Assembly: GCA_025963615.1 (NCBI GenBank)
Contig: JAOQAL010000017.1
Span: forward strand, 1-15,301
Reading direction: 5' to 3'
DNA length: 15,301 bases
Origin: Chitinophagaceae bacterium
GTDB taxonomy: Bacteria > Bacteroidota > Bacteroidia > Chitinophagales > Chitinophagaceae
The notes under the pieces were generated by a model, which was not told the origin of the DNA, ran no database searches, and saw only the letters and a program-made list of their open reading frames with translations. Shown here piece after piece: positions 171 to 13,124 of the stretch. The first letter of the stretch is position 1, and every line of letters starts with the position of its first letter. The position numbers and the translations under genes are program-made.

Positions 171-1421
171 ATGAGCGATAACATCTATAAGCGTACCGCC
201 AGTTATGTTACCGGATTGTTTGAGAAGAATCCACATCCGAATCTGCAATTTCATAATCTCGACCATACAAAAAAAGTAGTAGAACGGACGCAGGAAATTG
301 CCGCGCATTATCAACTTAACGAAGCGGATACATTGATCATATATATTGCAGCATGGTTTCATGATACGGGTCACTTGTTTACAGAAATTGAAAAGCATGA
401 GAAAAAAAGTGTTGAACTGATGACTTCGTTTGCAAGCAACGAGAAAGAGATAACTGACGAATCTATAGAAAAGATCGCAAGCTGTATTTTGGCTACAAAG
501 CTGCCTCATGATCCAAAAAACCTGCTGGAAGAAATCATTTGCGATGCAGACACTTATCATTTTGGCACTAAAGAGTTTAAGACCACTAATAAACTTGTAA
601 AAAAAGAATTCCAATTACGGGGTTATCCAATTTTATTAAACGATTGGACGAAAAATACTATTGAGCTTCTCGAATCACATACCTTTTTTACTACTTATTG
701 TAAAGTTTTATTAGATCAGAAAAAGAAAAAAAATATAGAGTGGTTGAAGCGAAAGGATCGGGAGACTTCAGCTGACAATATACATCATAATTTGTTTGAA
801 TCGGGTTCTGATAACAAACAAAATTCAAAGCAAAAGGGTAATCTTTTGATAAAGGGATTACAAACGATAATGCGCGTCACGTCAGCAAACCACTTGCGGT
901 TGAGTGAAATGGCTGATCGGAAAGCAAACATTCTTATTTCGGTAAATGCTATTATTATCTCGGTTATTTTATCACTGCTTGGCGAGAAATTGGCTGACGA
1001 TCCCTATCTGACAATACCTGTGATACTGTTTCTGATATCATCATTGTCCACCATCATAGTTGCCATATTGTCCACATTGCCAAAAGTAACTGAAGGCGTT
1101 TTCACAAGAGACGATATTCTAAGCAAAAGAACCAATTTATTGTTTTTTGGAAACTTTTATAAATCGTCTTTAGAGGAATATCAATGGGCAATGGCCACAT
1201 TAATGAAGGATACCGAATACGTATATACCGTATTGGTTAAAGATATACACCAGATAGGAGTGGTACTGGGAAGGAAATACAAACTGGTAAGGTTGGCCTA
1301 CAATATCTTTATGGTTGGGCTTATCGTAACTGTAGCGGCATTTTTTGTAGCAATAATTGTTAACTATGGACATACAGCTGAGCGCTCTACGATTACGAGT
1401 GGCTCGGGCTCCCCATTATAA
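171..1421 (+). CDS. HD-domain phosphohydrolase fused to a PycTM (DUF5706) membrane domain
   Basis: This 416-residue protein has two parts. Residues 1 to about 190 form an HD hydrolase domain with the full metal-binding set: H32 in LDHTKK, H64-D65 in WFHDTGH, and D125/D127 in ICDADTYH. HD enzymes of this kind cleave phosphate esters of nucleotides, including cyclic nucleotides or (p)ppGpp; the substrate cannot be read here. A charged linker (about 183-225) leads to a C-terminal domain that I recognise as the Pycsar-effector membrane domain. It has the characteristic ADRKANILISVNA segment (248-260) and hydrophobic stretches at about 254-270, 281-302 and 378-398, so the protein should sit in the inner membrane with its HD domain in the cytoplasm. 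In Pycsar systems PycTM proteins respond to cCMP or cUMP and disrupt the membrane. It is the first gene of an apparent operon with ppk1 and a cyclase. The ATG at 171 lacks a clear ribosome binding site, which is usual in Bacteroidota. Family assignment is confident; a defence role is inference. Confidence 0.88.
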   Translation: MSDNIYKRTASYVTGLFEKNPHPNLQFHNLDHTKKVVERTQEIAAHYQLNEADTLIIYIAAWFHDTGHLFTEIEKHEKKSVELMTSFASNEKEITDESIEKIASCILATKLPHDPKNLLEEIICDADTYHFGTKEFKTTNKLVKKEFQLRGYPILLNDWTKNTIELLESHTFFTTYCKVLLDQKKKKNIEWLKRKDRETSADNIHHNLFESGSDNKQNSKQKGNLLIKGLQTIMRVTSANHLRLSEMADRKANILISVNAIIISVILSLLGEKLADDPYLTIPVILFLISSLSTIIVAILSTLPKVTEGVFTRDDILSKRTNLLFFGNFYKSSLEEYQWAMATLMKDTEYVYTVLVKDIHQIGVVLGRKYKLVRLAYNIFMVGLIVTVAAFFVAIIVNYGHTAERSTITSGSGSPL

Positions 1422-1433
1422 TTTGTGTTCGTG

Positions 1434-3473
1434 ATGTATTATAACAGGGATTTAAGTTGGCTTGAATTTAATCATCGTGTGCTCAACGAAGCAGCGTGTA
1501 AAATGGTGCCGCTATATGATCGTATCAAATTTCTTTCTATTTTTTCTTCAAATCTAGATGAATTTTTCAGTATTCGATATCCCGTTATTCTTGCTATTTC
1601 AAATCTTAAGACAAAGACACAACGAAAAATTGAGAATGATCCGCATCCGGATGTTGCAGGCAGTATTCGAAAGGAAATTGAAGAACAGTTAGACGAATTC
1701 AATAACATTCTCACTAATGAAATTTTACCGGAGCTGGCAGCAAATAATATTATTCTTTACTACCACAAGGCAGTTATAGCAGAACACAAATACGAGGTGC
1801 GTGAGATATTTCTATCAAACGTTTTATCGTTTTTGCAACCAATATTTCTAAGGAGCGATATTATGGAGCGCTTTGAACCGGAAGCCAATAAGCTATACAT
1901 GATAATCTCCCTAAAAAAAATAGATGCTGATATTATTGATCATGCTATTATAAAAATCCCATCCGATCATTTGCAGCGATTCTATTGCCTGTCCCAGGTA
2001 AATGGACAAAATTACGTGATCTTTATTGACGATATTATCAGGGAAAACAGCAAGTATATTTTTCCGGGTTTTGAAATTGTGGGTGTGTACAGTATAAAAT
2101 TCAATAGAAACGAGGACATTGATTTTGAAGGCGACTATAAAGGAGACATCGTAAAAAAAATTGAACGAAAGCTTGTGAAGCGGGCTCATGGTTTTCCCTC
2201 CCGTTTTTTATTCGAATCAACTATGCCGCGAAATGTACAGCTGTATATTGCTTCAATTTTTGAGATAGAACATGAAGAGTTATTTGAGGATGGCAGATAC
2301 CACAATCTTTCAGATCTGAGTTCATTACCTCACTTTGGCAAACAACTGACAAACGAGGCCTGGGCTCCTTTGCATCTGTCGGTTTTTTCAGATAAAGAGG
2401 ATATTTTCAAGATATTGGAACGAAGAGATATACTGCTTCATTTTCCATACCAATCGTATAATCCGATCTTGTCATTTTTTAACCAGGCCGCTATTGATCC
2501 GGAAGTTGAGGAAATTTATATAACACTCTATCGTGTAGCTGCCGATTCCCTGATCGCAAATGCACTGATCAGCGCCGCCCGCAACGGGAAAAAAGTAGTC
2601 GCTTTCATTGAATTAAAAGCAAGATTTGATGAAGCAAATAATATTGCCTGGAGTAAGAAAATGAAAAAGGCAGGAATAACAATTATTTACAGCATTCCCG
2701 GAATAAAAGTTCATACCAAGATAGCGCTTATCGTAAAACGGACAGATGGTGTAAAGAAAACATATTCGATAATTGGTACGGGTAATTTCAATGAAGTTAC
2801 TGCAAGTCAATATACCGATCATATATTATTAACAACCAGGGAGGATATAAATAGTGAATTGATGGCCCTCTTCCGTTTTATTGAGAAGAGAGAAAAACCG
2901 TACCCCGGAAACACCCAGTTGTTTAAAAAAATTTTGGTTTCACAGTTCAATATGAACGAAAAATTTGAAAAGTTAATATTCAATGAAATTAAACAAGTTC
3001 AAAAAACCGGTTATGGCCTGATACGAATAAAGCTAAATAACCTTGAGGAACCGGGCATGATCAACCTTTTATATAAAGCGTCTGCTGCGGGCGTCAAGAT
3101 ACAATTGATCGTTCGGAGTATTTGCTGTTTGATTCCACAGGTTAGCGGGCTAAGTATGAACATTGAAGTTAAGCGGATAGTAGATCGATACCTTGAGCAC
3201 ACCCGGATTTTTATATTTGGTAAGGATGCTGACGCTAAGGTGATTATTGGTTCGGCAGACTGGATGACAAGAAACCTTTATCACAGGATCGAAGTATGTG
3301 CTCAGGTTACGGATGCCGGTTGCAAAAAAGAACTGCTTGACTACTTCAACCTTCAATGGCGTGGTACTGAAAAATTAGCGTACATTAATAAGCTAAAAAA
3401 CGGGAGTGAGCCGGAGAATGTGTCATACAATGCACAAGAGTCTATTTATGAGTATCTAAGAGAAAATTCATGA
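1434..3473 (+). CDS. ppk1: Polyphosphate kinase 1
   Basis: This protein of 679 residues is close to the roughly 690 typical of PPK1, which reversibly transfers the terminal phosphate of ATP to a growing polyphosphate chain. The N-terminus carries the family signature NRDLSWLEFN followed by FSSNLDEFFSIR. The autophosphorylated histidine is H427 in GIKVHTKIAL, matching E. coli His435. The second catalytic histidine is H589 in RYLEHTRIFIF, matching E. coli His592. The nearby SADWMTRNLYHRIEV is the usual C-terminal domain motif. All key residues are present, so it should be active. I chose the ATG at 1434 over an in-frame GTG at 1425 because MYYNRDLSW fits the usual PPK1 N-terminus. The gene starts 12 bases after the HD-PycTM stop, and its own stop overlaps the next start by four bases (ATGA), so translation of the cyclase is probably coupled to it. 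Its place between a PycTM protein and a cyclase is unusual; this may be an accessory copy. Confidence 0.95.
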   Translation: MYYNRDLSWLEFNHRVLNEAACKMVPLYDRIKFLSIFSSNLDEFFSIRYPVILAISNLKTKTQRKIENDPHPDVAGSIRKEIEEQLDEFNNILTNEILPELAANNIILYYHKAVIAEHKYEVREIFLSNVLSFLQPIFLRSDIMERFEPEANKLYMIISLKKIDADIIDHAIIKIPSDHLQRFYCLSQVNGQNYVIFIDDIIRENSKYIFPGFEIVGVYSIKFNRNEDIDFEGDYKGDIVKKIERKLVKRAHGFPSRFLFESTMPRNVQLYIASIFEIEHEELFEDGRYHNLSDLSSLPHFGKQLTNEAWAPLHLSVFSDKEDIFKILERRDILLHFPYQSYNPILSFFNQAAIDPEVEEIYITLYRVAADSLIANALISAARNGKKVVAFIELKARFDEANNIAWSKKMKKAGITIIYSIPGIKVHTKIALIVKRTDGVKKTYSIIGTGNFNEVTASQYTDHILLTTREDINSELMALFRFIEKREKPYPGNTQLFKKILVSQFNMNEKFEKLIFNEIKQVQKTGYGLIRIKLNNLEEPGMINLLYKASAAGVKIQLIVRSICCLIPQVSGLSMNIEVKRIVDRYLEHTRIFIFGKDADAKVIIGSADWMTRNLYHRIEVCAQVTDAGCKKELLDYFNLQWRGTEKLAYINKLKNGSEPENVSYNAQESIYEYLRENS

Positions 3474-4567
3474 AGATATCCAGGATAATAATATCTCGTT
3501 TTCCTGTAGCACTGAAATACAACTTTCGGAGAGTGCTTGTTATTGCAATTTGCTGGACGGTTATCGACATCATATGGACTCGATATTTTCATTTTTTGCC
3601 CAACCTGAATAACGAACATTTAATTCATTTTACTTCTATCAAAGCAATCCTGCTGCGTGGCGTGATCGTTTTTTTTATGAGCTACCTGATGGGATGGCTG
3701 CTTTTTTTCGGGATGAGGCATACACTTCGCAATTCATCGTTGCTGATGACTCTTGTAGCAAAGACAGGTATTATACTCCTCGCAGCATTAGCTATGAATT
3801 TTTTATTGCATTTTACGCAATTGGCATTTGTTTCAAACTTATCATTTTCAACATCCTGGCAAATTTTCTTTAGCGATGCTTCGTCCGTATTGTGGTTGTT
3901 ACACCATAGTGTAGGGTGGATTGCTTTATTTCTCATCACTCAATTGGGTGTGGAATTTCAGGAGAAATATTCACCTGGAGTTTTTTGGGAGATACTGATC
4001 GGCAAATACATTCAACCTAAAGTTGAAAAAAGAATCATCATGTTTTTAGATCTCAATGATTCTACAACAATAGCTGAAGGTCTGGATAGCAAAAAGTACT
4101 TTAGCTTTTTGCGGGATTTTATTTATTTCGTTTCGATCGCATTAATTGAGTATGATGGGCATATTTACCAATATATTGGCGATGAAATAGTTGTGTCATG
4201 GAGCAACACTTCATATAATAAACTTAATTGCCTTGACGCGGTAGGAATAGCATCCAGGCTACTTCAGAAAAATAGTAACTACTTTCAGAAGCGTTACGGA
4301 GTAGTACCTAAATTCAGCACCGGTCTCCATGTGGGAGAAGTAACGGTAGGTGAAATAGGGATCATTAAAAAAGACATTGTAATGAGTGGTGATACTATGA
4401 ATACCGCATCACGAATTTGTGATTATGGAAAATCAGTTAATGCCATGTGTGTTGCATCAGCTGAATTTATTAGTGATATAACTATCAGTTGGGAAACTAC
4501 GAATTTTGGTCCTGTTGACCTAAAAGGAAAAAACGAAAGTGTTGAGCTGTTTGCAGTGAATATGTAA
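3470..4567 (+). CDS. Membrane-bound class III nucleotide cyclase
   Basis: This 365-residue protein has an N-terminal membrane domain with four predicted helices (about 21-39, 58-82, 91-120 and 136-160). A short linker (about 161-187) joins it to a C-terminal class III cyclase domain (about 188-365). Both metal-binding aspartates are present, D194 in MFLDLNDST and D238 in YIGDE. The transition-state pair N311 and R315 lies in MNTASRI, so the domain looks catalytic. The two positions that select the base are not those of a standard adenylate cyclase: the usual lysine is Q234 (YQYIGD) and the usual Asp/Thr aligns with V304. The product could be cAMP, cGMP or a pyrimidine cyclic nucleotide. I recall the same Gln-type motif in many Bacteroidota cyclases, so it need not be specific to this locus. 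The ATG overlaps the ppk1 stop, and the last eight bases before the next convergent gene leave no room for a clear terminator. The operon partner with a PycTM domain is a plausible receiver of its product. Confidence 0.88.
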   Translation: MKISRIIISRFPVALKYNFRRVLVIAICWTVIDIIWTRYFHFLPNLNNEHLIHFTSIKAILLRGVIVFFMSYLMGWLLFFGMRHTLRNSSLLMTLVAKTGIILLAALAMNFLLHFTQLAFVSNLSFSTSWQIFFSDASSVLWLLHHSVGWIALFLITQLGVEFQEKYSPGVFWEILIGKYIQPKVEKRIIMFLDLNDSTTIAEGLDSKKYFSFLRDFIYFVSIALIEYDGHIYQYIGDEIVVSWSNTSYNKLNCLDAVGIASRLLQKNSNYFQKRYGVVPKFSTGLHVGEVTVGEIGIIKKDIVMSGDTMNTASRICDYGKSVNAMCVASAEFISDITISWETTNFGPVDLKGKNESVELFAVNM

Positions 4568-4575
4568 GTTGAACA

Positions 4576-5502
4576 CTAATCAATATCCCAATTAAGTTTT
4601 ACCCCCTGTCCATAAGGCGTTGGCGTCATCCCTACTGACAGCTTATGATTTTTAAATCGATGAACCTCAGGTACGAGAATACCGCATGCTGCTCCGATGA
4701 CAACCCCGATCATCACATCTGATGGGAAATGAAGCATTGCCTTTACCCTGAAATACCCTTCGGCCAGGGGCGGCAAAGTAGCTAAACCATACAGCAGGTA
4801 TTTTTTATTGCCAATCTCAGGGTGATAATCGCAATATACTTTTACCATAAAATAAGTGGAAGCGATAGCAGTAGCTGTATGTCCGCTATACATCGAGTTT
4901 CGGTTATTACCACCTTTCTTTTCGTCAATGGATAGCTGTTCATAATAAACGAGCGGACGAAATTTGTTCTGAAATTCAGGACCGAAAGGGCTATAATTAT
5001 ATATACTAAAAGTGATGGAATGCATTTCATAATACATCACCAATATCCTAAACCAATCTTTCTTTATATTTTTGTCCATGGCAAGAAACGCGGGCAAGAC
5101 GATCAGGCCAGGTAGTGTATAATCTGACGCCAGGGCATAGTCATGTCGTTTAGCGGGATCCTGGTTGAACGCTATTTGATCAAAGCTTGAGTAGACGTTC
5201 CTGTTCAACCCTCGAAATTCCTGATCGTTGATAGTTATCTTGTTTTTTATTACATAGGGAATGGCGTATATGTCGGTGGCAGTCGCAACAACACATATTG
5301 TGCTGCTCACCCAGTAATTGACTCTGTAAAGATGCGTCGTGTCTTTTTTCTTACCCGATTCTCCGGCAATGGGCGGTTGAGGATCAGTATTTTCAATTGA
5401 GCGAACTGAATCTGTAATCACTGTTTGTGCATTCACGATCGTCGGCGGAGTTGCAATGCCGATTGCAGACAGTAAAATGAGAAAATAGGATCGACACCTC
5501 AT
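4576..5502 (-). CDS. Exported PAP2-family phosphatase (paralogue A)
   Basis: This 308-residue protein begins with a signal peptide (about 1-25, ending in NAQ), so it works outside the cytoplasm. The PAP2 core lies in the C-terminal half: RP at 182-183 (motif 1), S206-G207-H208 (motif 2, YSGH instead of PSGH) and R252/H258/D262 in FRVKAMLHFPSD (motif 3). PAP2 enzymes remove phosphate from lipid phosphates such as undecaprenyl diphosphate or phosphatidic acid through a phospho-histidine, here probably H258. The lysine that normally sits seven residues before the Arg of RP is replaced by Pro, so activity or specificity may differ. Hydrophobic segments at about 66-86, 130-142 and 263-278 suggest membrane insertion. 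The last 25 residues after the PAP2 core (LSVGMTPTPYGQG...) look like a soluble or strand-like tail. It runs convergent with the cyclase gene and divergent from a related PAP2 gene. Confidence 0.82.
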   Translation of the reverse strand: MRCRSYFLILLSAIGIATPPTIVNAQTVITDSVRSIENTDPQPPIAGESGKKKDTTHLYRVNYWVSSTICVVATATDIYAIPYVIKNKITINDQEFRGLNRNVYSSFDQIAFNQDPAKRHDYALASDYTLPGLIVLPAFLAMDKNIKKDWFRILVMYYEMHSITFSIYNYSPFGPEFQNKFRPLVYYEQLSIDEKKGGNNRNSMYSGHTATAIASTYFMVKVYCDYHPEIGNKKYLLYGLATLPPLAEGYFRVKAMLHFPSDVMIGVVIGAACGILVPEVHRFKNHKLSVGMTPTPYGQGVKLNWDID

Positions 5503-5663
5503 AAATTTATTTTGTTTAATAAAATAAAATTCATGCCATGTACTACTTTCGCAGATAGCCTTTCCATGGTGTCGTAGATTGATTTTGAAATGATGTTTTT
5601 TAGGATGATTTTCATTTCATGGCACAATAATATTGTATGTATCAGGATCATTTATTAGTGTTT
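5503..5663. promoter_or_regulatory. Divergent intergenic region between two PAP2 genes
   Basis: This AT-rich gap separates two divergent, related PAP2 genes and must hold the start signals for both if they are expressed separately. I looked for the Bacteroidota -7/-33 pair (TAnnTTTG with an upstream TTG) and found only a weak match, TGATTTTG at 5580-5587 on the + strand, with no good partner upstream. The position supports a regulatory role; the sequence alone does not define a promoter. Confidence 0.35.
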
Positions 5664-6551
5664 ATGAAACTGAAATGTATACTTCCTCTTCTTCTATTCC
5701 TGGTGTTAAGGGTCAATGCGCAGGAAGACACGGCTTCGGTGATTATAGATTCCGTAAAAATTGAAATTCCGGACTCTTTTGTCGCAAACAAAACAAGGAA
5801 ATCAGAATCAATATACCACCTGAAAAAGGGAATCGACTATCCTGTTGTCGCAGTGTTAGGTGGTACATCTATCTATTTAATGATGATTATCTATAGTAAG
5901 CCCGAAACCCCTGCATCGGTTATTCTAAATTTGAATAAAAATGCCATCCCTCCTTATGATAGGTGGAATGCCGGCTGGCATGACGCCAATCTGGACAAAG
6001 TCAGCTATTATCCTTTTTATGCTGTAATGCCTTTGCCACTTTTGTTTTTAGCTGATAGGAAAATGAAAAATGACCTTGGTAAAATTGGCGTACTGTACCT
6101 TGAATCGTTCGCTTTAGAAGGAATTATTTATTCCGGTTCTGTATATTTTGTTGACCGGTTTCGTCCAGATGTATATAACACAAACCTGGGCTTGAATTAC
6201 CGGACAAACGGCAATTTTAGAAATTCTTTTTTTGCTGGCCATGTGGCTGTTGTCGCTAATTCCACTTTTTTTATGTCTTCGGTATTTATGGCTTACCATC
6301 CTCATTCGAAATTAAAATGGGTATTGTATGGTACATCTGCCGCGGCAACGCTCGGAATGTCCTATATGAGGATCCGCGCCGGAAAACATTTTGTATCAGA
6401 TGTAGCAACGGGAATTCTTGTTGGGGTCGGATGCGGATTGCTTACTCCTGAACTGCATAAAAACAGGAACGATAAGCGACAACGTTGGTCGCTTAATCCC
6501 GATCTGTCTGAAAAAGGCGGAGGCGGATTTACTTTTACATATAAGTTATAA
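5664..6551 (+). CDS. Exported PAP2-family phosphatase (paralogue B)
   Basis: From the ATG at 5664 this is a 295-residue protein with a clear signal peptide (MKLKCILPLLLFLVLRVNAQ). An in-frame ATG at 5637 would add nine residues ahead of the signal, so I prefer the later start. PAP2 motifs are R167-P168 in DRFRP, A191-G192-H193 in FFAGH, and R236/H242/D246 in MRIRAGKHFVSD. As in the divergent neighbour, the first-motif lysine is missing (Val at that place) and PSGH is altered. The shared layout (signal peptide, about 100-residue lead-in, PAP2 core, LTPELH versus LVPEVH after motif 3) marks the two as paralogues. Likely substrates are envelope lipid phosphates, but the altered motifs make the exact reaction uncertain. 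The C-terminal tail is rich in glycine and ends in an alternating GFTFTYKL, possibly a beta strand. Confidence 0.82.
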   Translation: MKLKCILPLLLFLVLRVNAQEDTASVIIDSVKIEIPDSFVANKTRKSESIYHLKKGIDYPVVAVLGGTSIYLMMIIYSKPETPASVILNLNKNAIPPYDRWNAGWHDANLDKVSYYPFYAVMPLPLLFLADRKMKNDLGKIGVLYLESFALEGIIYSGSVYFVDRFRPDVYNTNLGLNYRTNGNFRNSFFAGHVAVVANSTFFMSSVFMAYHPHSKLKWVLYGTSAAATLGMSYMRIRAGKHFVSDVATGILVGVGCGLLTPELHKNRNDKRQRWSLNPDLSEKGGGGFTFTYKL

Positions 6552-6614
6552 CAAGCCATGCTGCGTATAGTTGCAAAAATGCACCAATTACAAGCTGGCT
6601 ACAGCGGTGGCTTG
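6552..6614 (+). repeat. Imperfect inverted repeat just after a PAP2 stop codon
   Basis: CAAGCCATGCTG (6552-6563) can pair with CAGCGGTGGCTTG (6602-6614): seven base pairs, one bulged base, one G-U pair and four further pairs, with a loop of about 38 bases. It begins right after the stop codon of the upstream PAP2 gene. It could be a transcript-end structure, but there is no U-tract directly after it, so a standard intrinsic terminator is not supported. Confidence 0.35.
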
Positions 6615-6712
6615 GCACGGCTTTTCTGGGCATTTGGTAAACAATGCAATTGCCTGTCCGGGTTGAAGATCGGGTGTTATGGCTGACTATTTGAGTTTAA
6701 GTTACTTGAGCA

Positions 6713-7456
6713 ATGACTAACAGGAAAAAAGCAATCCCGCAATTTGGAAAAGAAAGATCGCAGCGAATAAGGGAAGGCGTATTTAAGCACCTGACCTTAA
6801 AGCTTGCAGCGATAAGTGGCCTATTCGTGGCGTGTTTGTATACATTCGGTTATATTCTTGCAGAAGTTGTTTATGAAGATGAAAAGAAGATAGATAATTC
6901 GATCTTTACATTTTTCGATAAGATATCCTCCGACCGCCTTGTGGAAATAATGAAATCGTTGACCTTCTTCGGCTCGCATATTTTCCTACTGCCTGCCTAC
7001 TCCTTACTTATTTTGTATTTTATTGCCCGCAAAAAATACAGGTATGGGCTGCATATAGCAATAATAGCATTAAGCAGCACTGCGCTGCTATTTGCTTTGA
7101 AGAACATAACCCGTCGAAGTCGTCCGGACATGCCGTTTGTAAAGGACATTACTAATTTTAGCTTTCCCAGTGGCCACGCTCTTTCTGCATTTATTTTTTT
7201 CAGTATTTATATATATATCGTCTGGCATGGTCACCTCCCCCTCCAGCTAAAGTGGATTTACACTGCTTTTCTTTGCGCACTAGCTGCTGCAGTAGGTGCC
7301 AGCCGTATTGTACTAAGGGTTCACTACCCCACCGATGTGATTGCTGGTTTTTGCCTTGGTATTATCTGGGTAATGTCATCATTCTGGATCATGAAGAAGA
7401 TATCTAAGAATGATAAAGAACAATTGAAGGTTGCAGAAGCTCAGGAAACGCTTTGA
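6713..7456 (+). CDS. Integral-membrane PAP2 lipid phosphatase (PgpB/BcrC-like)
   Basis: This 247-residue protein has all three PAP2 motifs in canonical form: K130 through R137-P138 (KNITRRSRP), PSGH at 152-155, and S197-R198/H204/D208 in SRIVLRVHYPTD. H204 is the expected phospho-enzyme nucleophile and H155 the general acid. Hydrophobic segments at about 30-52, 84-105, 112-130, 156-172, 182-196 and 207-226 make it a multi-pass inner-membrane enzyme without a cleaved signal. Such enzymes dephosphorylate undecaprenyl diphosphate, phosphatidylglycerophosphate or phosphatidic acid; the sequence does not decide among these. The basic N-terminus (RKKAIPQFGKERSQR) should stay in the cytoplasm. It lies 161 bases after another PAP2 gene on the same strand but belongs to a different subfamily, without signal peptide or long lead-in. 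It is convergent with the next gene, with 31 bases between. Confidence 0.88.
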   Translation: MTNRKKAIPQFGKERSQRIREGVFKHLTLKLAAISGLFVACLYTFGYILAEVVYEDEKKIDNSIFTFFDKISSDRLVEIMKSLTFFGSHIFLLPAYSLLILYFIARKKYRYGLHIAIIALSSTALLFALKNITRRSRPDMPFVKDITNFSFPSGHALSAFIFFSIYIYIVWHGHLPLQLKWIYTAFLCALAAAVGASRIVLRVHYPTDVIAGFCLGIIWVMSSFWIMKKISKNDKEQLKVAEAQETL

Positions 7457-7487: not shown

Positions 7488-10400
7488 TCATTGAAATGTA
7501 ACATTGATCTTCGTTCCGAGATTTGCATGAATTAATGTGCTTTCTTCAGATGTAGCCAGCAGCAAAGATATCATCGCGGTATTAAACGGAATGAGGTATA
7601 TCCCACCGCCAAAGCCGTGATGCCATTTTCCTGATTGTTCGTTATCCATCCACACTCTTCCAAGATCATTAAATCCTACAAGGCCAAGGTCGCTTTTTAG
7701 AATATATGCGTTGAACGTACATAGTTTAACCTTCAACTCAACACTTCCATATAACATTGACGATCCGGCAAACCGTTGCGTTGAGAAGCCCCGCAAGTAA
7801 TTATTACCACCTAAAGTCAAAGCCTGAAAATATTGGAAAGATCTGCTGAAAATATGCCCACCGCCAACATGCAAGGCAGTTATTAATTTTGTGTCAGGTA
7901 TAATTCTGGCATAAATATCGGCAGCCGAGGTAACGCTGGTAATTGACGAACTTTCTTTATTGACTGCTCTCAATGCAATGCATTCAGTTTTCCAATTGAT
8001 TCCGTTTTCGGGAATAAGTTCACTGTTCAAATTATTAAAAGCAAAAACGATCTTTCCACCACCATAAATTTTAGTTGCATTCACGCTCTGTGAATCCAAA
8101 CCAACAGCTGTAGGGGATTCTAATACGGTTGATTTGCCTTGTGCTGAATTTATCCAGTAATAAAATATTGAAGGGCCAGCAGATAAGCTCATCGTACGTT
8201 CGGGTAAAAGTCTTTTTCTCAGTAATACGTCGGTTGAAGAAACGTTATATCTTGTATGATAGTATTCTATAGGGACATTGTTGCTTCGTTTTGTTTCGTT
8301 GCCAAATCCAAAAAAATAGTTCAATGTGGGAAGATCAAGTCGCGTTTCAGGAACAAGATCATAGCTTCTGCAAAGGTCAATAAATTCGCCTTTGTATTTA
8401 GTTCTATAAGATCTATTGCTAAACGTCCATTGGTTAATTAGCTCTTGTTTAGAAGCATATGGGAGTTTCCTGAATCCTTTAGTTTCATATTTCATACCCA
8501 GGCCGGCATATACAGTACCATTTTGGTTCAGGCCTGCAGAAAAAGCAGGGAACTGAAATGAGTTATAGATGTTTTCCTGGAACTGGTAATCATTCACAGT
8601 ATATTTTCGTGAAAACATTTTTGTCGTATGCTTATTGGATAGAATTGTATTGGTATCATTGGAAAGATCATAAATCCAGTTTTTCGCGTTGCCCCGTATA
8701 TTGAAAGTGTCTTGTCCTTTACCTCCAATTATTCGTAGTTTTATTTTAGATACCGCAGTTTCGTCGATGTCAAAATAATCATTCCCGTTAAAACCATACA
8801 ATCTTATCTCTTTTGTAACTGTGGGGTCAAAGTGCCTTGCGTACATTTCATTGATTTCGCCATTGTCCTCTTTTGTAAATAATCTTACTGATAGTCCGGA
8901 ATCATCTTTTGACACCTTAAATAAGTTATTATCATTGTTGCCCAGGATGTTCACCTTTTTTGAAATGAATTTATAGTATTGTGGCCATTTGAGGTAAAGC
9001 TCCTCTCGCCGGCTTATAAGTCTTGAGTTGATATCGCTACCCTGCATTGCATATATTTCAGGAGGTAACCGGCGTACGGCCGCGCTTATTACCGAGTCAG
9101 TCAGCTTTTTTTTAAATTCGCTCAATGTACTTTGCCAATCATTTTCTGATAGCTGGTTGAGGAAATACATATCCATGTACGATTCTGCAAGCCCATAATT
9201 TTTTATGTGCTTTATTTTGTTTTGAAAGTTGATCATAAAAGCAAATTTGCCGTGTATGGCCATCTTCATAATTAGTCCATCGTTTTTGTAAAAGGCCTGA
9301 TCGCGGTCCCGGGGAATTGGATGAAATATTTTTTTTCCGGAAGAATCGCTGACACCCCAACACCATTGGGCATAATGCCTGTCAAAATCAGCAATCAGGA
9401 AGTCTACCATCCTGCATTTTAAATATTCTTTTTGATCGGTGTTGTATTGGCCGTCGTCTATCATTTTATTGATCGTTTCATAGGTGCTAAACACCTTATC
9501 AAATCCGGGCTTCCGTTCTTCAAAATGGCAAACTGTATTAGCCAGCAGCGGTCTGAACTTTCCCAGTGACGTGTCATTAGGAACGAAAACGGTCTGAGTA
9601 TTTGGGTGGGTAATACTTAGTGGCTCTAACAATCCGGATACTACTGTACCACCGTAAGGTATTTGCGCAGAAAGCATATCATTAACGATATCATTTACCA
9701 CAGTTCCTTTATAACCTTCGGGCACCATTTTCTGTACATTTTTATTAACCGAACGCAATGCCCAGGTTCTTCCTTTTTTATCTTCCAGGTTTATTCCTAT
9801 AGATTCATGGCGTCCGCCCGGTCCTTTTATTTCCAGGCCATTATTCTCCCGGGCCAGGTTGAACACTCTCAATTTTACACTGGTCCCCCATATCTGCCTG
9901 TAATTATTTCCTATAAGAAATCGTTGTAGAGATGTAGTCTGTGTGAAATTCGCGTTTGCAATCGCATTAACGCTATCAGTTTTTATCATTCCTTTTGTCG
10001 CGGTATCTTCTCCCAATACTACAGGAGATGAAAAATCAGCAATATCTTTAATGAAAATTTGCTTAACAGTATCTCCCGAAACCTGGTAATAGATTACTCT
10101 TGCCTTTTTTTCTTTTAAGATCTCCAACACAGCGAATCCGACATTTGAGCTCGCATATTCCACTTTCTTTCCATGTCCCACGCGGCTGGGATATGAGGAT
10201 GCTCCGTTTATAATATGATAGTGTTTGCCGTCATTCAACAATTGAAGACTGTGCTCCTGGCCGGCAATAAATAATGTGTTAGGATGATAATCAAATTGCT
10301 TTCTTATGCCGGCCATTGAAACATCGCCGGTTTCGCTCATTTCATAATATATTTTATTGTTCATATCCTGCCTGGACTGGATCGCATTCCTGATTACCGG

Positions 10401-10541
10401 GTATAGAGAGCCTATTAGGGGTAACGGCAGATACAATTCCTTTGTTTTTCGAAAATCAGTAAAAGGAAAAAGATGTTGTTTGATAGTATATGCGCCACTA
10501 TGTGTGCCGGTATTTGCTAAGGGATGATACGTTATCACCAC
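7488..10541 (-). CDS. Metallophosphoesterase remnant, kinase-like middle and Omp85-type barrel (downstream part of a split gene)
   Basis: This 1017-residue frame continues the protein encoded at 10535-11113. It opens in the middle of a phosphoesterase domain (VVITYHPL, THSG, then GQEHSLQ near residue 95), which is the C-terminal end of the fold, so the start at GTG 10541 is probably not a natural N-terminus. Residues about 245-420 form a conserved middle section with LRSVNK (K267), EERKP (341-345), DFDRHYAQW (385-393) and PRDRDQAF (410-417); these resemble an atypical kinase lobe pair. From about 550 onward the protein is rich in alternating strands, with GGNNYLRGF near residue 920 typical of the Omp85/surface-antigen barrel, and it ends in an aromatic-containing strand (KINVTFQ). 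The full-length product would be an outer-membrane protein with a periplasmic phosphoesterase-like head. The long intact frame argues that either the frame break is recent or it is a read error. No partner gene is evident downstream. Confidence 0.75.
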   Translation of the reverse strand: MVITYHPLANTGTHSGAYTIKQHLFPFTDFRKTKELYLPLPLIGSLYPVIRNAIQSRQDMNNKIYYEMSETGDVSMAGIRKQFDYHPNTLFIAGQEHSLQLLNDGKHYHIINGASSYPSRVGHGKKVEYASSNVGFAVLEILKEKKARVIYYQVSGDTVKQIFIKDIADFSSPVVLGEDTATKGMIKTDSVNAIANANFTQTTSLQRFLIGNNYRQIWGTSVKLRVFNLARENNGLEIKGPGGRHESIGINLEDKKGRTWALRSVNKNVQKMVPEGYKGTVVNDIVNDMLSAQIPYGGTVVSGLLEPLSITHPNTQTVFVPNDTSLGKFRPLLANTVCHFEERKPGFDKVFSTYETINKMIDDGQYNTDQKEYLKCRMVDFLIADFDRHYAQWCWGVSDSSGKKIFHPIPRDRDQAFYKNDGLIMKMAIHGKFAFMINFQNKIKHIKNYGLAESYMDMYFLNQLSENDWQSTLSEFKKKLTDSVISAAVRRLPPEIYAMQGSDINSRLISRREELYLKWPQYYKFISKKVNILGNNDNNLFKVSKDDSGLSVRLFTKEDNGEINEMYARHFDPTVTKEIRLYGFNGNDYFDIDETAVSKIKLRIIGGKGQDTFNIRGNAKNWIYDLSNDTNTILSNKHTTKMFSRKYTVNDYQFQENIYNSFQFPAFSAGLNQNGTVYAGLGMKYETKGFRKLPYASKQELINQWTFSNRSYRTKYKGEFIDLCRSYDLVPETRLDLPTLNYFFGFGNETKRSNNVPIEYYHTRYNVSSTDVLLRKRLLPERTMSLSAGPSIFYYWINSAQGKSTVLESPTAVGLDSQSVNATKIYGGGKIVFAFNNLNSELIPENGINWKTECIALRAVNKESSSITSVTSAADIYARIIPDTKLITALHVGGGHIFSRSFQYFQALTLGGNNYLRGFSTQRFAGSSMLYGSVELKVKLCTFNAYILKSDLGLVGFNDLGRVWMDNEQSGKWHHGFGGGIYLIPFNTAMISLLLATSEESTLIHANLGTKINVTFQ

Positions 10542-10543
10542 AC
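10535..10543 (-). other. Frame break inside the metallophosphoesterase-barrel gene
   Basis: On the minus strand the upstream frame reads K-L-V-W-stop, and the downstream frame reads V-V-I-T-Y-H-P from a GTG that overlaps that stop. The DNA here is TTAGTGTGGTGATA; removing one GT pair gives TTAGTGGTGATA, which joins the frames as KLVVITYHP, the expected phosphoesterase motif. A GT-dinucleotide duplication (natural or a sequencing error) is the simplest reading. A single-base loss is also possible. Confidence 0.8.
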
Positions 10544-11113
10544 TAATTTATCAAACTTGCTTTTTACAATATTTTCTAACTCTGCCAGTACCTCTTGCTT
10601 TGATCTGTATTTACATCCGGATTCTATGCCGGGCTTGTCGCCATCTTGCAACCACCATTGTGTGTTTAGGAAAACGAGTTCAACATCATTAGTTAAACTA
10701 ATCGTTTTCGGTCCCGGGCACGCATCAGCCGGATAGATGTTTACATGGTTGTTATTCAGATGCTCCAAAAAAGATTGTTGTTTCAGTATTGCATTATAGC
10801 CTTCATTTTTACCACTGGCCCAATCATGATAACCCGTAATAAAAACAGCCTTTGCCTCCGATTTTTCGATAATGGCCGCTTCTTGCTTTAGCGCAGTTGT
10901 GTCCAGAGATTGCGTCGTATTATTTCCGAGGTACAATACTGTTGTATTTGAATCAAACAGTACGTTTTTTCGCACTATATTCAGAAAATGCGTATTGTCT
11001 TGTATGCTTTCGCCAACATCCCCTAATAAAATTAGTCGTTTAGTCCCCTGATCTTGTGCAAAGCAGGTAAAAGGAAGTAACCCGTATAAGATACTTTTAT
11101 AGATATTACGCAT
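10535..11113 (-). CDS. N-terminal metallophosphoesterase part of the split gene, active site degenerate
   Basis: This 192-residue frame starts with a signal peptide (MRNIYKSILYGLLPFTCFAQ) and runs through the first half of a TRAP/purple-acid-phosphatase-like metallophosphoesterase. The motifs are recognisable but altered. The first Asp is kept (D32 in LLGDVGES). GDN is GNN (63-65 in YLGNNTT). GNHDW is GYHDW (94-98). LDTQWW appears as LNTQWW (149-154). In the continuing frame GHEH is GQEH and the usual HH before Pro is YH. With four or more metal ligands changed, the domain is unlikely to be a normal phosphoesterase. The frame ends in KLVW-stop where the family would continue into VVITYHPL, so this is the front half of the gene at 7488-10541 and not a separate protein. 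Translation restart at the overlapping GTG is possible but would give a product without signal peptide. Confidence 0.78.
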   Translation of the reverse strand: MRNIYKSILYGLLPFTCFAQDQGTKRLILLGDVGESIQDNTHFLNIVRKNVLFDSNTTVLYLGNNTTQSLDTTALKQEAAIIEKSEAKAVFITGYHDWASGKNEGYNAILKQQSFLEHLNNNHVNIYPADACPGPKTISLTNDVELVFLNTQWWLQDGDKPGIESGCKYRSKQEVLAELENIVKSKFDKLVW

Positions 11114-11402
11114 TTTTAATGTCTTGAATTTATCTATACAAATATTTTGCCTTCAGAATTAACAACAGAAAATTTCAACCGTAGCATTGCTTTCACTTCT
11201 ATGCAATGCATAAGGAAAATAAACAAGCAGGTTCGGTTCGAAATTTGTCCGGTTCACATATAAGCTTCGCTCAAAAGATGTTTTTTTTGCATTTTATACG
11301 GTTATTGCACTCTCATGTACATTCTTGTATCGTAGCAAAACTCCATTTTACCTTTTCTATTTAAATCTTTCTATATTGTATCTAAATTAATAAATGCTAT
11401 GT
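11114..11402. promoter_or_regulatory. Intergenic region between divergent envelope-protein genes
   Basis: This stretch of about 290 AT-rich bases lies between the divergent metallophosphoesterase and PLC-like genes and should carry both promoters. GCATTGC (11184-11190) and GCAATGC (11203-11209) form a perfect seven-base inverted repeat with a 12-base loop, a possible operator or hairpin. A weak minus-strand -7-like element (AATATTTG, complement of 11139-11146) has a TTG 16 bases upstream, closer than the usual 19-21. I see no coding frame or RNA gene here. Confidence 0.35.
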
Positions 11403-13124
11403 ATGAATAAATACATACTCTTGGTATTATTACTGCTCATTACTGCCAGGAGCAGGGCAGGAATGTATGCCGAACACAAAAAAATTGGAGACCTGGCGTT
11501 CATATCGTTTGTGAAGGAAAACCACCTTGAATCTTTCTTCAGGAACACCTTGAAATTCGGGCAGTACGGTATTGATTATAAAACGATACCGTTTAGCAAA
11601 AATCCTTTCGTCATGAATTACTACAATGGTATGTTTGCCCTATCGGACTCACAATACCAATATTCTTATGGCGACCTGTCGGCTATGTCGGGCGATCATT
11701 CCCTTGACCCTTTTCAACTTTTCGAAGGCCTGTTCACTAAAGGCTACTATAATGGCATGACACCGGGGCTAAAGCTCAACGACCTGGTAGGCCAGTTGCA
11801 GTTGGTAAGAAACCTGCAGAACACATATATCGACAAAAACACCAGGAACACAATAGGGCAGCCAATAAATGAGTCGAACTATTCGAACCTGAAATACATA
11901 TGGCTGGCCAACGAAGACCAAAGCCACTTTTTACGCCCAGGCGAAAGTTTAGACCAGATGCTTACCACTATTGATTACTCCCTGCTGGATTCTGTCGAAG
12001 CTTTGTTAAGTATACCATATGATGATGTTGCCGCACAACATGCCAGGCTTCTTGCGCTACGTAAATCAATTGACAAAAAGATCCTTCAACTGAACAACAG
12101 CTCTAAATATGCGATACTACATGCCTATGCCCTGAACTATATGAACAACTCAGCAATAGCCTATTGCAACAAAGATGACTCTGAAGGGTTCAGGCGTAAT
12201 TTCCAGTTTGCACTCATATTCAACGCTTATGCCGATCATTATCTGCAGGACGCATTTTCCAGTGGACATATGCCGGTAAAACGCTCGATAATAAGGGGCC
12301 TTGACAATAAAGGCATACACGACTATTACAGCAGGAACGGTATAGATGTAGAAAACGAACTTGGCATGAAGTGGCGTACTTATGGCGACAATTTTTACGA
12401 CAGCATAACATTCTACAAAGCGATCAAAGCAAACTACGAATCGCTCAATGAGCTGTGGGAGTATTTCAACAAAACGGTGGAAACATACTCAAAACAGAAA
12501 CTTGCTGATCCTTTCGCCAATACACCGGAATCAATGGTAACAAAAGTATTGACCAAGAAGACCGACATCAGCACTCTGCCACAAATGATGCATAAAGAAT
12601 TCGCAGCTTACAAATACGAGCCTGTACCACTGAACAGCACCCGTTACAAACACGACATACTACTTAAGAAAGGCTCTAAGAATGGTTTTTTCTATGAGGT
12701 GGGCGCTAATTGTAACGTCTGGAACAACAATGCTTATATTGGCTGGAATATTGGAGCGGGACTGGGACTGGACCATACAAAATATGACCGCGATACGAGA
12801 AAGAATATCAACCGCTGCGGCAAGAACAAAGAAACTGTATACTGGCGGGCAATATCTGTCAATTTTTCTTCGACAATGATCAGCAATGTATCTGTGAATA
12901 CCCTGACGCTGGGGCCGCAAATTACTTACCTGGACAGGCTTACTGCCGAAATAGACCTGGGAGGTATATTGAGCAATAGCAACTATTTTTTATGCCGCCC
13001 GGTGATCGGGTACGAATTTAAAACGATACGCTGTCCTCTTGCACCCTCTGTAAAAGCATTTTACAACATAACAAACAATGCATACAGCGGGGCAGGACTA
13101 ATGCTGAATTTAAGACTATACTAA
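11403..13124 (+). CDS. Exported zinc phospholipase C/P1-nuclease-like protein with barrel-like C-terminus
   Basis: From the ATG at 11403 this is a 573-residue protein with a signal peptide (MNKYILLVLLLLITARSRAG); an ATG three codons earlier (11394) is possible. The middle carries the zinc motif of the phospholipase C/S1-P1 nuclease fold: H279, D283 and H289 in DHYLQDAFSSGHM, with exactly the H-x3-D-x5-H spacing of Bacillus cereus PLC H118/D122/H128. H25 just after the signal (AEHKKIGDLA), D98-H99 in SGDHSLDP, H240 (ILHAYAL) and H306 in GIHDYYSRNG are further candidate ligands. Residues about 425-573 change to short alternating strands with many glycines and a C-terminal tyrosine (LMLNLRLY), as in outer-membrane barrels. 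The protein may be an outer-membrane-anchored phosphodiesterase acting on phospholipids or nucleic acids; the substrate is not readable. It begins a + strand group with two small genes downstream (12 and 53 bases apart). Confidence 0.65.
   Translation: MNKYILLVLLLLITARSRAGMYAEHKKIGDLAFISFVKENHLESFFRNTLKFGQYGIDYKTIPFSKNPFVMNYYNGMFALSDSQYQYSYGDLSAMSGDHSLDPFQLFEGLFTKGYYNGMTPGLKLNDLVGQLQLVRNLQNTYIDKNTRNTIGQPINESNYSNLKYIWLANEDQSHFLRPGESLDQMLTTIDYSLLDSVEALLSIPYDDVAAQHARLLALRKSIDKKILQLNNSSKYAILHAYALNYMNNSAIAYCNKDDSEGFRRNFQFALIFNAYADHYLQDAFSSGHMPVKRSIIRGLDNKGIHDYYSRNGIDVENELGMKWRTYGDNFYDSITFYKAIKANYESLNELWEYFNKTVETYSKQKLADPFANTPESMVTKVLTKKTDISTLPQMMHKEFAAYKYEPVPLNSTRYKHDILLKKGSKNGFFYEVGANCNVWNNNAYIGWNIGAGLGLDHTKYDRDTRKNINRCGKNKETVYWRAISVNFSSTMISNVSVNTLTLGPQITYLDRLTAEIDLGGILSNSNYFLCRPVIGYEFKTIRCPLAPSVKAFYNITNNAYSGAGLMLNLRLY

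Follow-up and report, generated by a model that had tools for sequence, protein, structure and literature searches.

Layout of the locus

The window analysed here, a stretch of 15,301 nucleotides from a Chitinophagaceae bacterium, is one whole contig (JAOQAL010000017.1), position 1 being the contig start. Near this end, three genes on the forward strand encode an HD-PycTM protein, a polyphosphate kinase 1 (PPK1) paralogue and a membrane class III nucleotidyl cyclase (Table 1). The ATG of the PPK1 gene at position 1434 lies 12 bases past the HD-PycTM stop, with an in-frame GTG as another possible start, and its stop overlaps the cyclase start in the sequence ATGA. A preliminary description of this DNA had regarded the three genes as tightly packed and operon-like, and this was borne out by the open reading frames (ORFs) and by Pfam. 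Relatives repeat both the gene order and the narrow spacing, so the arrangement is not due to chance. As set out below, the pairing of the cyclase with HD-PycTM has been stable in evolution, and the locus is best read as an envelope/polyphosphate module of Bacteroidota whose cyclase input is specific to one clade.

The trio forms part of a longer unit. Over 50 residues, the product of bases 3-158 was found to be 70% identical to the C-terminal end of the metallophosphatase-Omp85 protein in the relative L104, and it is 47-67% identical to seven other relatives. In L104, the corresponding gene stands directly before HD-PycTM. Pfam placed an N-terminal Metallophos domain and a C-terminal Omp85 domain in this protein in both relatives tested (L104 and L134). 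A propeller-like protein precedes or accompanies metallophosphatase-Omp85 in most loci of the family, and the propeller proteins of L036 and L037 match the Pfam family SdiA-regulated. The fuller order is propeller, metallophosphatase-Omp85, HD-PycTM, PPK1 (where present) and cyclase. Since the window is the whole contig, the genes upstream of 3-158 are missing from it.

Table 1. Features of the window, with the evidence for each
Feature	Positions	Strand	Basis or remark
Metallophosphatase-Omp85, C-terminal 51 residues	3..158	+	Truncated by contig start; translation and identity to relatives
HD-PycTM	171..1421	+	Pfam; N-terminal HD phosphohydrolase and C-terminal PycTM membrane domain, three hydrophobic segments (hydropathy)
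HD domain of HD-PycTM, about residues 5-206	183..788	+	
PycTM membrane domain, about residues 229-397	855..1361	+	Pfam PF18967; PADLOC PycTM 9.6e-14, residues 246-397
PPK1 paralogue linked to HD-PycTM	1434..3473	+	Pfam, TIGR03705; alternative start GTG 1425
Membrane class III nucleotidyl cyclase	3470..4567	+	Pfam Guanylate_cyc 4e-10
PAP2 phosphatase, convergent	4576..5502	-	Counterpart beside cyclase in near relative L105, 63% identity
PAP2 phosphatase	5637..6551	+	Counterparts in L104 (52%) and L105 (57%)
Third PAP2 phosphatase	6713..7456	+	Pfam

Domains and residues of the three proteins

HD-PycTM matches Pfam at 5.6e-9 for HD and 1e-31 for PycTM, a domain which we take to be the former DUF5706. 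The HD ligands H28, H64, D65 and D125 were invariant across 69 aligned sequences and make up the H...HD...D ligand set of the superfamily; they are lost in several distant HD-PycTM members. An AlphaFold2 model of the protein was obtained with a mean predicted local distance difference test score of 86 and a predicted template modelling score of 0.52, and the HD domain is predicted to have a fold like that of cyclic-nucleotide phosphodiesterases, tied with plain HD hydrolases. Class I cyclic nucleotide monophosphate phosphodiesterases carry the signature HDxxHx[AG]xx[NQ], beginning at HD; the window protein reads HDTGHLFTEI and departs from it, and the class I domains of PDE2, PDE7, PDE9 and PDE10 share only 14-19% identity with its HD domain. 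The HD fold and the H...HD...D ligands are also common to the (d)NTP (deoxy- or ribonucleoside triphosphate) pyrophosphohydrolases YpgQ and YedJ and to the plant cGMP phosphodiesterase AtCN-PDE1, but unlike in these enzymes the HD domain is fused to a PycTM membrane domain. The PycTM region alone had zero matches among sequences of the PDB. Relatives of HD-PycTM numbered 7014 at E <= 0.001 among 7998 scored candidates; among the matches listed, both domains were present in 117 of 120 relatives, and three are named 'Pycsar system effector family protein' in their source. At L036:6416-8476, HD, PycTM and SdiA-regulated domains were found by Pfam in one 686-residue ORF, a natural fusion of cluster neighbours. 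The window's genome holds four further PycTM-domain genes, all on short contigs (C21, C196, C422 and C581; L056-L059).

In the cyclase, the metal-binding D194 and D238, the transition-state residues N311 and R315, and Q234 were invariant in 24 aligned sequences, which places the enzyme in class III. A simple scan gave three hydrophobic segments at its N-terminus, and the cyclases of other clusters are 35-56% identical to it. Purine-selecting pairs of such enzymes are Lys with Asp or Thr, or Glu with Cys. Neither canonical pair is matched by the window cyclase, which has Gln and Val; aligned to the adenylate cyclase OaPAC, Lys is replaced by Gln and Thr by Val. A pattern scan of 43 cyclase-labelled genes gave Gln with Ala or Val in 38 and Gln with Thr in one; two had Lys with the second motif not found, and in two neither motif was found. 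Pyrimidine-specifying residues are given in PMC11224242 as F100, R142 and Q144 of EaPycC and F60, K104 and F109 of AnPycC. When these positions were placed by spacing from the metal-binding Asp rather than by structural alignment, that of EaPycC R142 corresponded to Q234 and that of EaPycC Q144 and AnPycC K104 to I236, and these published residues were absent apart from one Phe, F192, two before the first Asp. The cyclase fits neither the ATP nor the GTP pattern nor, save for that Phe, the pyrimidine-cyclase one, and its product is not readable from sequence, though a pair of Gln with Ala or Val would lead one to expect products unlike those of standard adenylate cyclases. DUF2652 proteins encoded next to HD-PycTM in L041 and L045 were considered as a possible further kind of cyclase, given the suggestive motif PDISGFT...EGDA, but the idea was rejected, profile comparison not being significant (probability 0.4%).

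A complete PPK1 between HD-PycTM and the cyclase had already been proposed, and all four domains (N, middle, C1 and C2) were recovered by Pfam, and TIGR03705 matched as well. The residues R367, R397, H427 and H589, which we take to match the catalytic His and Arg positions of the E. coli enzyme, were invariant in 12 aligned sequences; PPK1 works through phospho-histidine. The protein shares domains and catalytic residues with known PPK1 but belongs to a different paralogue group from the widespread one: among the matches listed in the family genomes, the window's group was found at 40-100% identity and the widespread group at about 34-37%. Of 75 listed matches of the window's type, 74 were taken for a linkage count, a second fragment in G281 being left out. 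The paralogue was observed directly behind HD-PycTM on the same strand, at a spacing of 9-390 bp and among the HD-PycTM matches listed, in 56 of these 74 copies from 244 genomes of the family; among the other 18, an Omp85 gene comes next in three (L282, L285 and L286). The window's genome has one PPK1 copy, and because this genome is 79% complete, the missing second copy is not evidence. A phylum-wide search with the PPK1 alignment did not usefully separate the paralogues. In the distant members L041, L045, L046, L047, L049 and L268, a SixA histidine phosphatase adjoins HD-PycTM or lies one gene off, and in L045 and L268 it also adjoins PPK1.

Pairing and neighbourhood in relatives

A pairing of cyclase and PycTM protein had been stressed for the window, and it was found to hold well beyond it. 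The 244 family genomes were searched with a profile of cluster cyclases, which favours cluster members, and the best 36 of the 68 listed cyclases were compared with a subset of HD-PycTM places. The 32 best-scoring cyclases reached at least 478 bits, the next copy 401 bits. Of these 32, 28 are encoded on the same strand as HD-PycTM and downstream of it, either directly (11 copies, 7-141 bp) or behind PPK1 (17 copies). As for the other four, L297 follows PPK1 on a short contig, L293 is unlinked, and L291 and L294 are next to Omp85 and PAP2 genes, with HD-PycTM lying near the cyclase in L291. The two copies below the cut that were inspected (L295 and L296) are not in the cluster.

The same pairing was observed in a tree of HD-PycTM built from 90 of 200 sequences by a quick method and with no bootstrap. 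One clade of 28 (Shimodaira-Hasegawa-like approximate likelihood ratio test 100), here the trio clade, holds the window and every family row with a cyclase neighbour. The cyclase follows HD-PycTM in 27 of the 28; in the remaining row (L115), where a cyclase probably follows as well, the contig edge falls inside PPK1, and another contig of that genome carries PPK1 followed by a cyclase. Ten of the 28, spread over several branches, lack PPK1 behind HD-PycTM, and the changes needed on the tree were three for presence of the cyclase and 11 for presence of PPK1. Because the cyclase is found in 27 of 28 members and PPK1 is absent in 10, HD-PycTM of this clade is firmly tied to the cyclase and only optionally to PPK1, a pattern that provides the strongest evidence that cyclase and HD-PycTM work together. 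Four genomes (G283, G208, G339 and G301) have two HD-PycTM loci each, one with a cyclase and without PPK1 (L117, L119, L120 and L126) and a second with PPK1 behind HD-PycTM, the absence of a cyclase from the second having been mapped for G283 only (L289). A division of labour between the two loci is possible.

HD-PycTM was matched in 105 of the 244 family genomes at E <= 1e-30, and from these matches 80 loci were taken in order of score rather than randomly. Counting up to three genes away on the same strand, HD-PycTM is accompanied by PPK1 in 45 of these 80 family loci, by a cyclase in 26 and by both in 16; the order HD-PycTM, PPK1, cyclase is likewise seen in 16. By these counts the trio is not restricted to the window's genome; nor is it constant as a set of three, 10 clade members lacking PPK1. 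In all 69 family loci flanked on both sides by three genes or more, a propeller or Omp85 gene was present within five genes. A second set of named loci, the best 80 of 589 relatives and overlapping with the family set (L193 and L194 come from the genomes of L128 and L124), includes Pedobacter, Mucilaginibacter, Sphingobacterium, Chitinophaga and Niastella, as well as Segetibacter sp. 3557_3, which carries the trio (L193); here PPK1 was found in 43, a cyclase in 4 and both in 3, and a propeller or Omp85 gene in 64 of the 65 loci with full flanks. One of the named loci, in an Ignavibacteriae metagenome-assembled genome (L268), has HD-PycTM together with SixA, PPK1, Omp85 and propeller genes. Among 37 usable order-level loci, the window's own-genome copies included, 3 have PPK1, 1 a cyclase, 8 a propeller gene, 12 Omp85 and 4 SixA. 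From these counts, HD-PycTM near the window travels with the envelope pair, PPK1 is frequent and the cyclase is a local addition; the companions thin out in distant members. The association with a nearby cyclase assumed in the preliminary description holds inside the trio clade. Outside it, HD-PycTM normally has no cyclase beside it: a same-strand cyclase neighbours it in only 4 of the best 80 of 589 named loci and in a single one of the 37 order-level loci. Cyclases on the opposite strand or at a greater distance (L204, L253, L219 and L254) and upstream of HD-PycTM (L044 and L291, only L044 being counted as a neighbour) were also observed outside the clade.

Several further genes were noted. 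Where the cluster lacks a cyclase (L289, L290 and many other loci), the Omp85 gene is followed by one for a conserved protein of some 780 residues, which matches GAF weakly and below threshold. Behind the cyclase of the window (4576-7456) stand three different PAP2 phosphatase genes in series, the first two of which recur beside the operon in L105. A second metallophosphatase-Omp85 gene follows on the reverse strand (7488-11113), split into the overlapping ORFs 10535-11113 and 7488-10541; its counterpart in L104 and L134 is a single ORF of about 1200 residues, and the split is a frameshift or an assembly error. A 576-residue protein without a Pfam match is encoded at 11394-13124 on the forward strand.

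A proposed envelope/polyphosphate module and its alternatives

What might such a cluster do? The module, conserved in Chitinophagaceae and related bacteria, looks like one of cell-envelope signalling rather than an antiviral one. In the proposed scheme, the SdiA-type propeller and metallophosphatase-Omp85 would lie on the outside and read an envelope or phosphate cue, and HD-PycTM, the PPK1 paralogue and the cyclase would lie at the inner membrane. The cyclase would make a cyclic nucleotide at the membrane; HD-PycTM, as its partner, would bind this product via the PycTM domain, hydrolyse it via the HD domain, or both; and the local signal may set PPK1 activity or polyphosphate turnover. That Chitinophagaceae have in this locus their own form of a chromosomal envelope/polyphosphate module, with the three proteins working in this manner, is put forward tentatively, as somewhat short of probable.

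An alternative is that HD-PycTM is a membrane-bound YpgQ- or PPX-like phosphoanhydride hydrolase, acting on NTP or polyphosphate to balance PPK1, the cyclase being a later, separate output of one clade. The solved sequence relatives of the protein are HD proteins of the YedJ, BH2835 and SE1688 type, and Foldseek also matched exopolyphosphatase and GppA structures, each at E above 0.001. PMC6692503 describes YpgQ and YedJ as (d)NTP pyrophosphohydrolases dependent on Mn. PPK1 is linked more widely than the cyclase (45 against 26 family loci and 43 against 4 named loci), and SixA stands beside HD-PycTM in 4 of the 37 order-level loci. However, within the trio clade it is PPK1 that is missing, in 10 of 28 members, with none lacking the cyclase save the contig-end case, and 30 of the 90 tree rows have HD-PycTM without either gene. 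This alternative is judged somewhat unlikely.

A more specific form of the signalling scheme is a non-defence relative of the cyclase/PycTM pair, in which the product of a membrane cyclase with non-canonical specificity would be both sensed by PycTM and destroyed by a phosphodiesterase-like HD domain, coupling envelope state to the linked PPK1; in this full form it is considered unlikely. The genes may also be merely co-transcribed in an envelope-maintenance operon, with cyclase, PPK1 and HD-PycTM not acting on each other's products. This would agree with propeller and Omp85 genes accompanying HD-PycTM more constantly than any other gene across the family and named loci, and with L291 and L294, where the cyclase follows an Omp85 gene without HD-PycTM between them. 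It accounts poorly for one cyclase group being near-exclusively paired with one HD-PycTM clade despite cyclase identities of 35-56% to the window's and the coming and going of PPK1, and is regarded as rather improbable.

The preliminary description had also related the locus to Pycsar anti-phage systems, which act through cCMP or cUMP and in which the cyclase product would trigger the PycTM domain to disrupt the membrane. The likeness consists of a class III cyclase, with both metal-binding aspartates, and a PycTM-domain membrane protein in one operon; PADLOC matched PycC (8.9e-14) and PycTM in the window, and HD-PycTM is patchy in the family. These matches are at domain level, and so is the link to Pycsar as a whole. 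The Pycsar effector is PycTM or PycTIR without an added enzyme domain, whereas PycTM here is fused to an intact HD phosphohydrolase; the cyclase is membrane-bound with other specificity residues, unlike those published for PycC in PMC11224242 apart from one Phe; and the operon holds PPK1, metallophosphatase-Omp85 and propeller genes. Nor did defence models match in excess in the flanks: 112 flank proteins of 20 trio-clade loci gave 19 model-protein pairs with PADLOC at E <= 1e-10, against 21 for 112 control proteins, which came not from random places but from 17 loci with a PPK1 or cyclase copy that does not adjoin HD-PycTM. One point weighs against a non-defence reading, namely that the flank hits include PycTIR/TIR-effector, mads, REase_II, ShosA, MzaA and PsyrA models; the hits are pooled over the loci, and one or two of these may have defence genes nearby. 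Among 50,697 phage records none contained full-length HD-PycTM, and of 72,556 plasmid records one covered at least 80% of it, which is weak evidence as the Bacteroidota share of these records was not counted. The PycTM half without HD occurs in viral contigs (L299-L378), where the best 80 of 155 relatives cover about residues 184-401. On the flanks, the cyclase residues and the companion genes, a Pycsar-type defence role is highly improbable, and the locus is better read in line with the fallback of the preliminary description, as a conserved module that has nothing to do with phage.

No paper on this cluster was found in the open-licence PMC literature, subscription papers not being excluded. 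HD-PycTM is a large family, and its defence name may mislead for the branch near the window, because the neighbourhoods there point to a chromosomal envelope/polyphosphate module. The cluster offers a testable handle on the role of PycTM outside defence and on polyphosphate control in Bacteroidota. A cyclase with a phosphodiesterase-like membrane protein as its steadiest partner would point to an uncharted cyclic-nucleotide circuit. If PycTM does sense and HD does destroy the cyclase product, the PycTM of Pycsar would represent a single branch within a wider PycTM family with mostly housekeeping roles.
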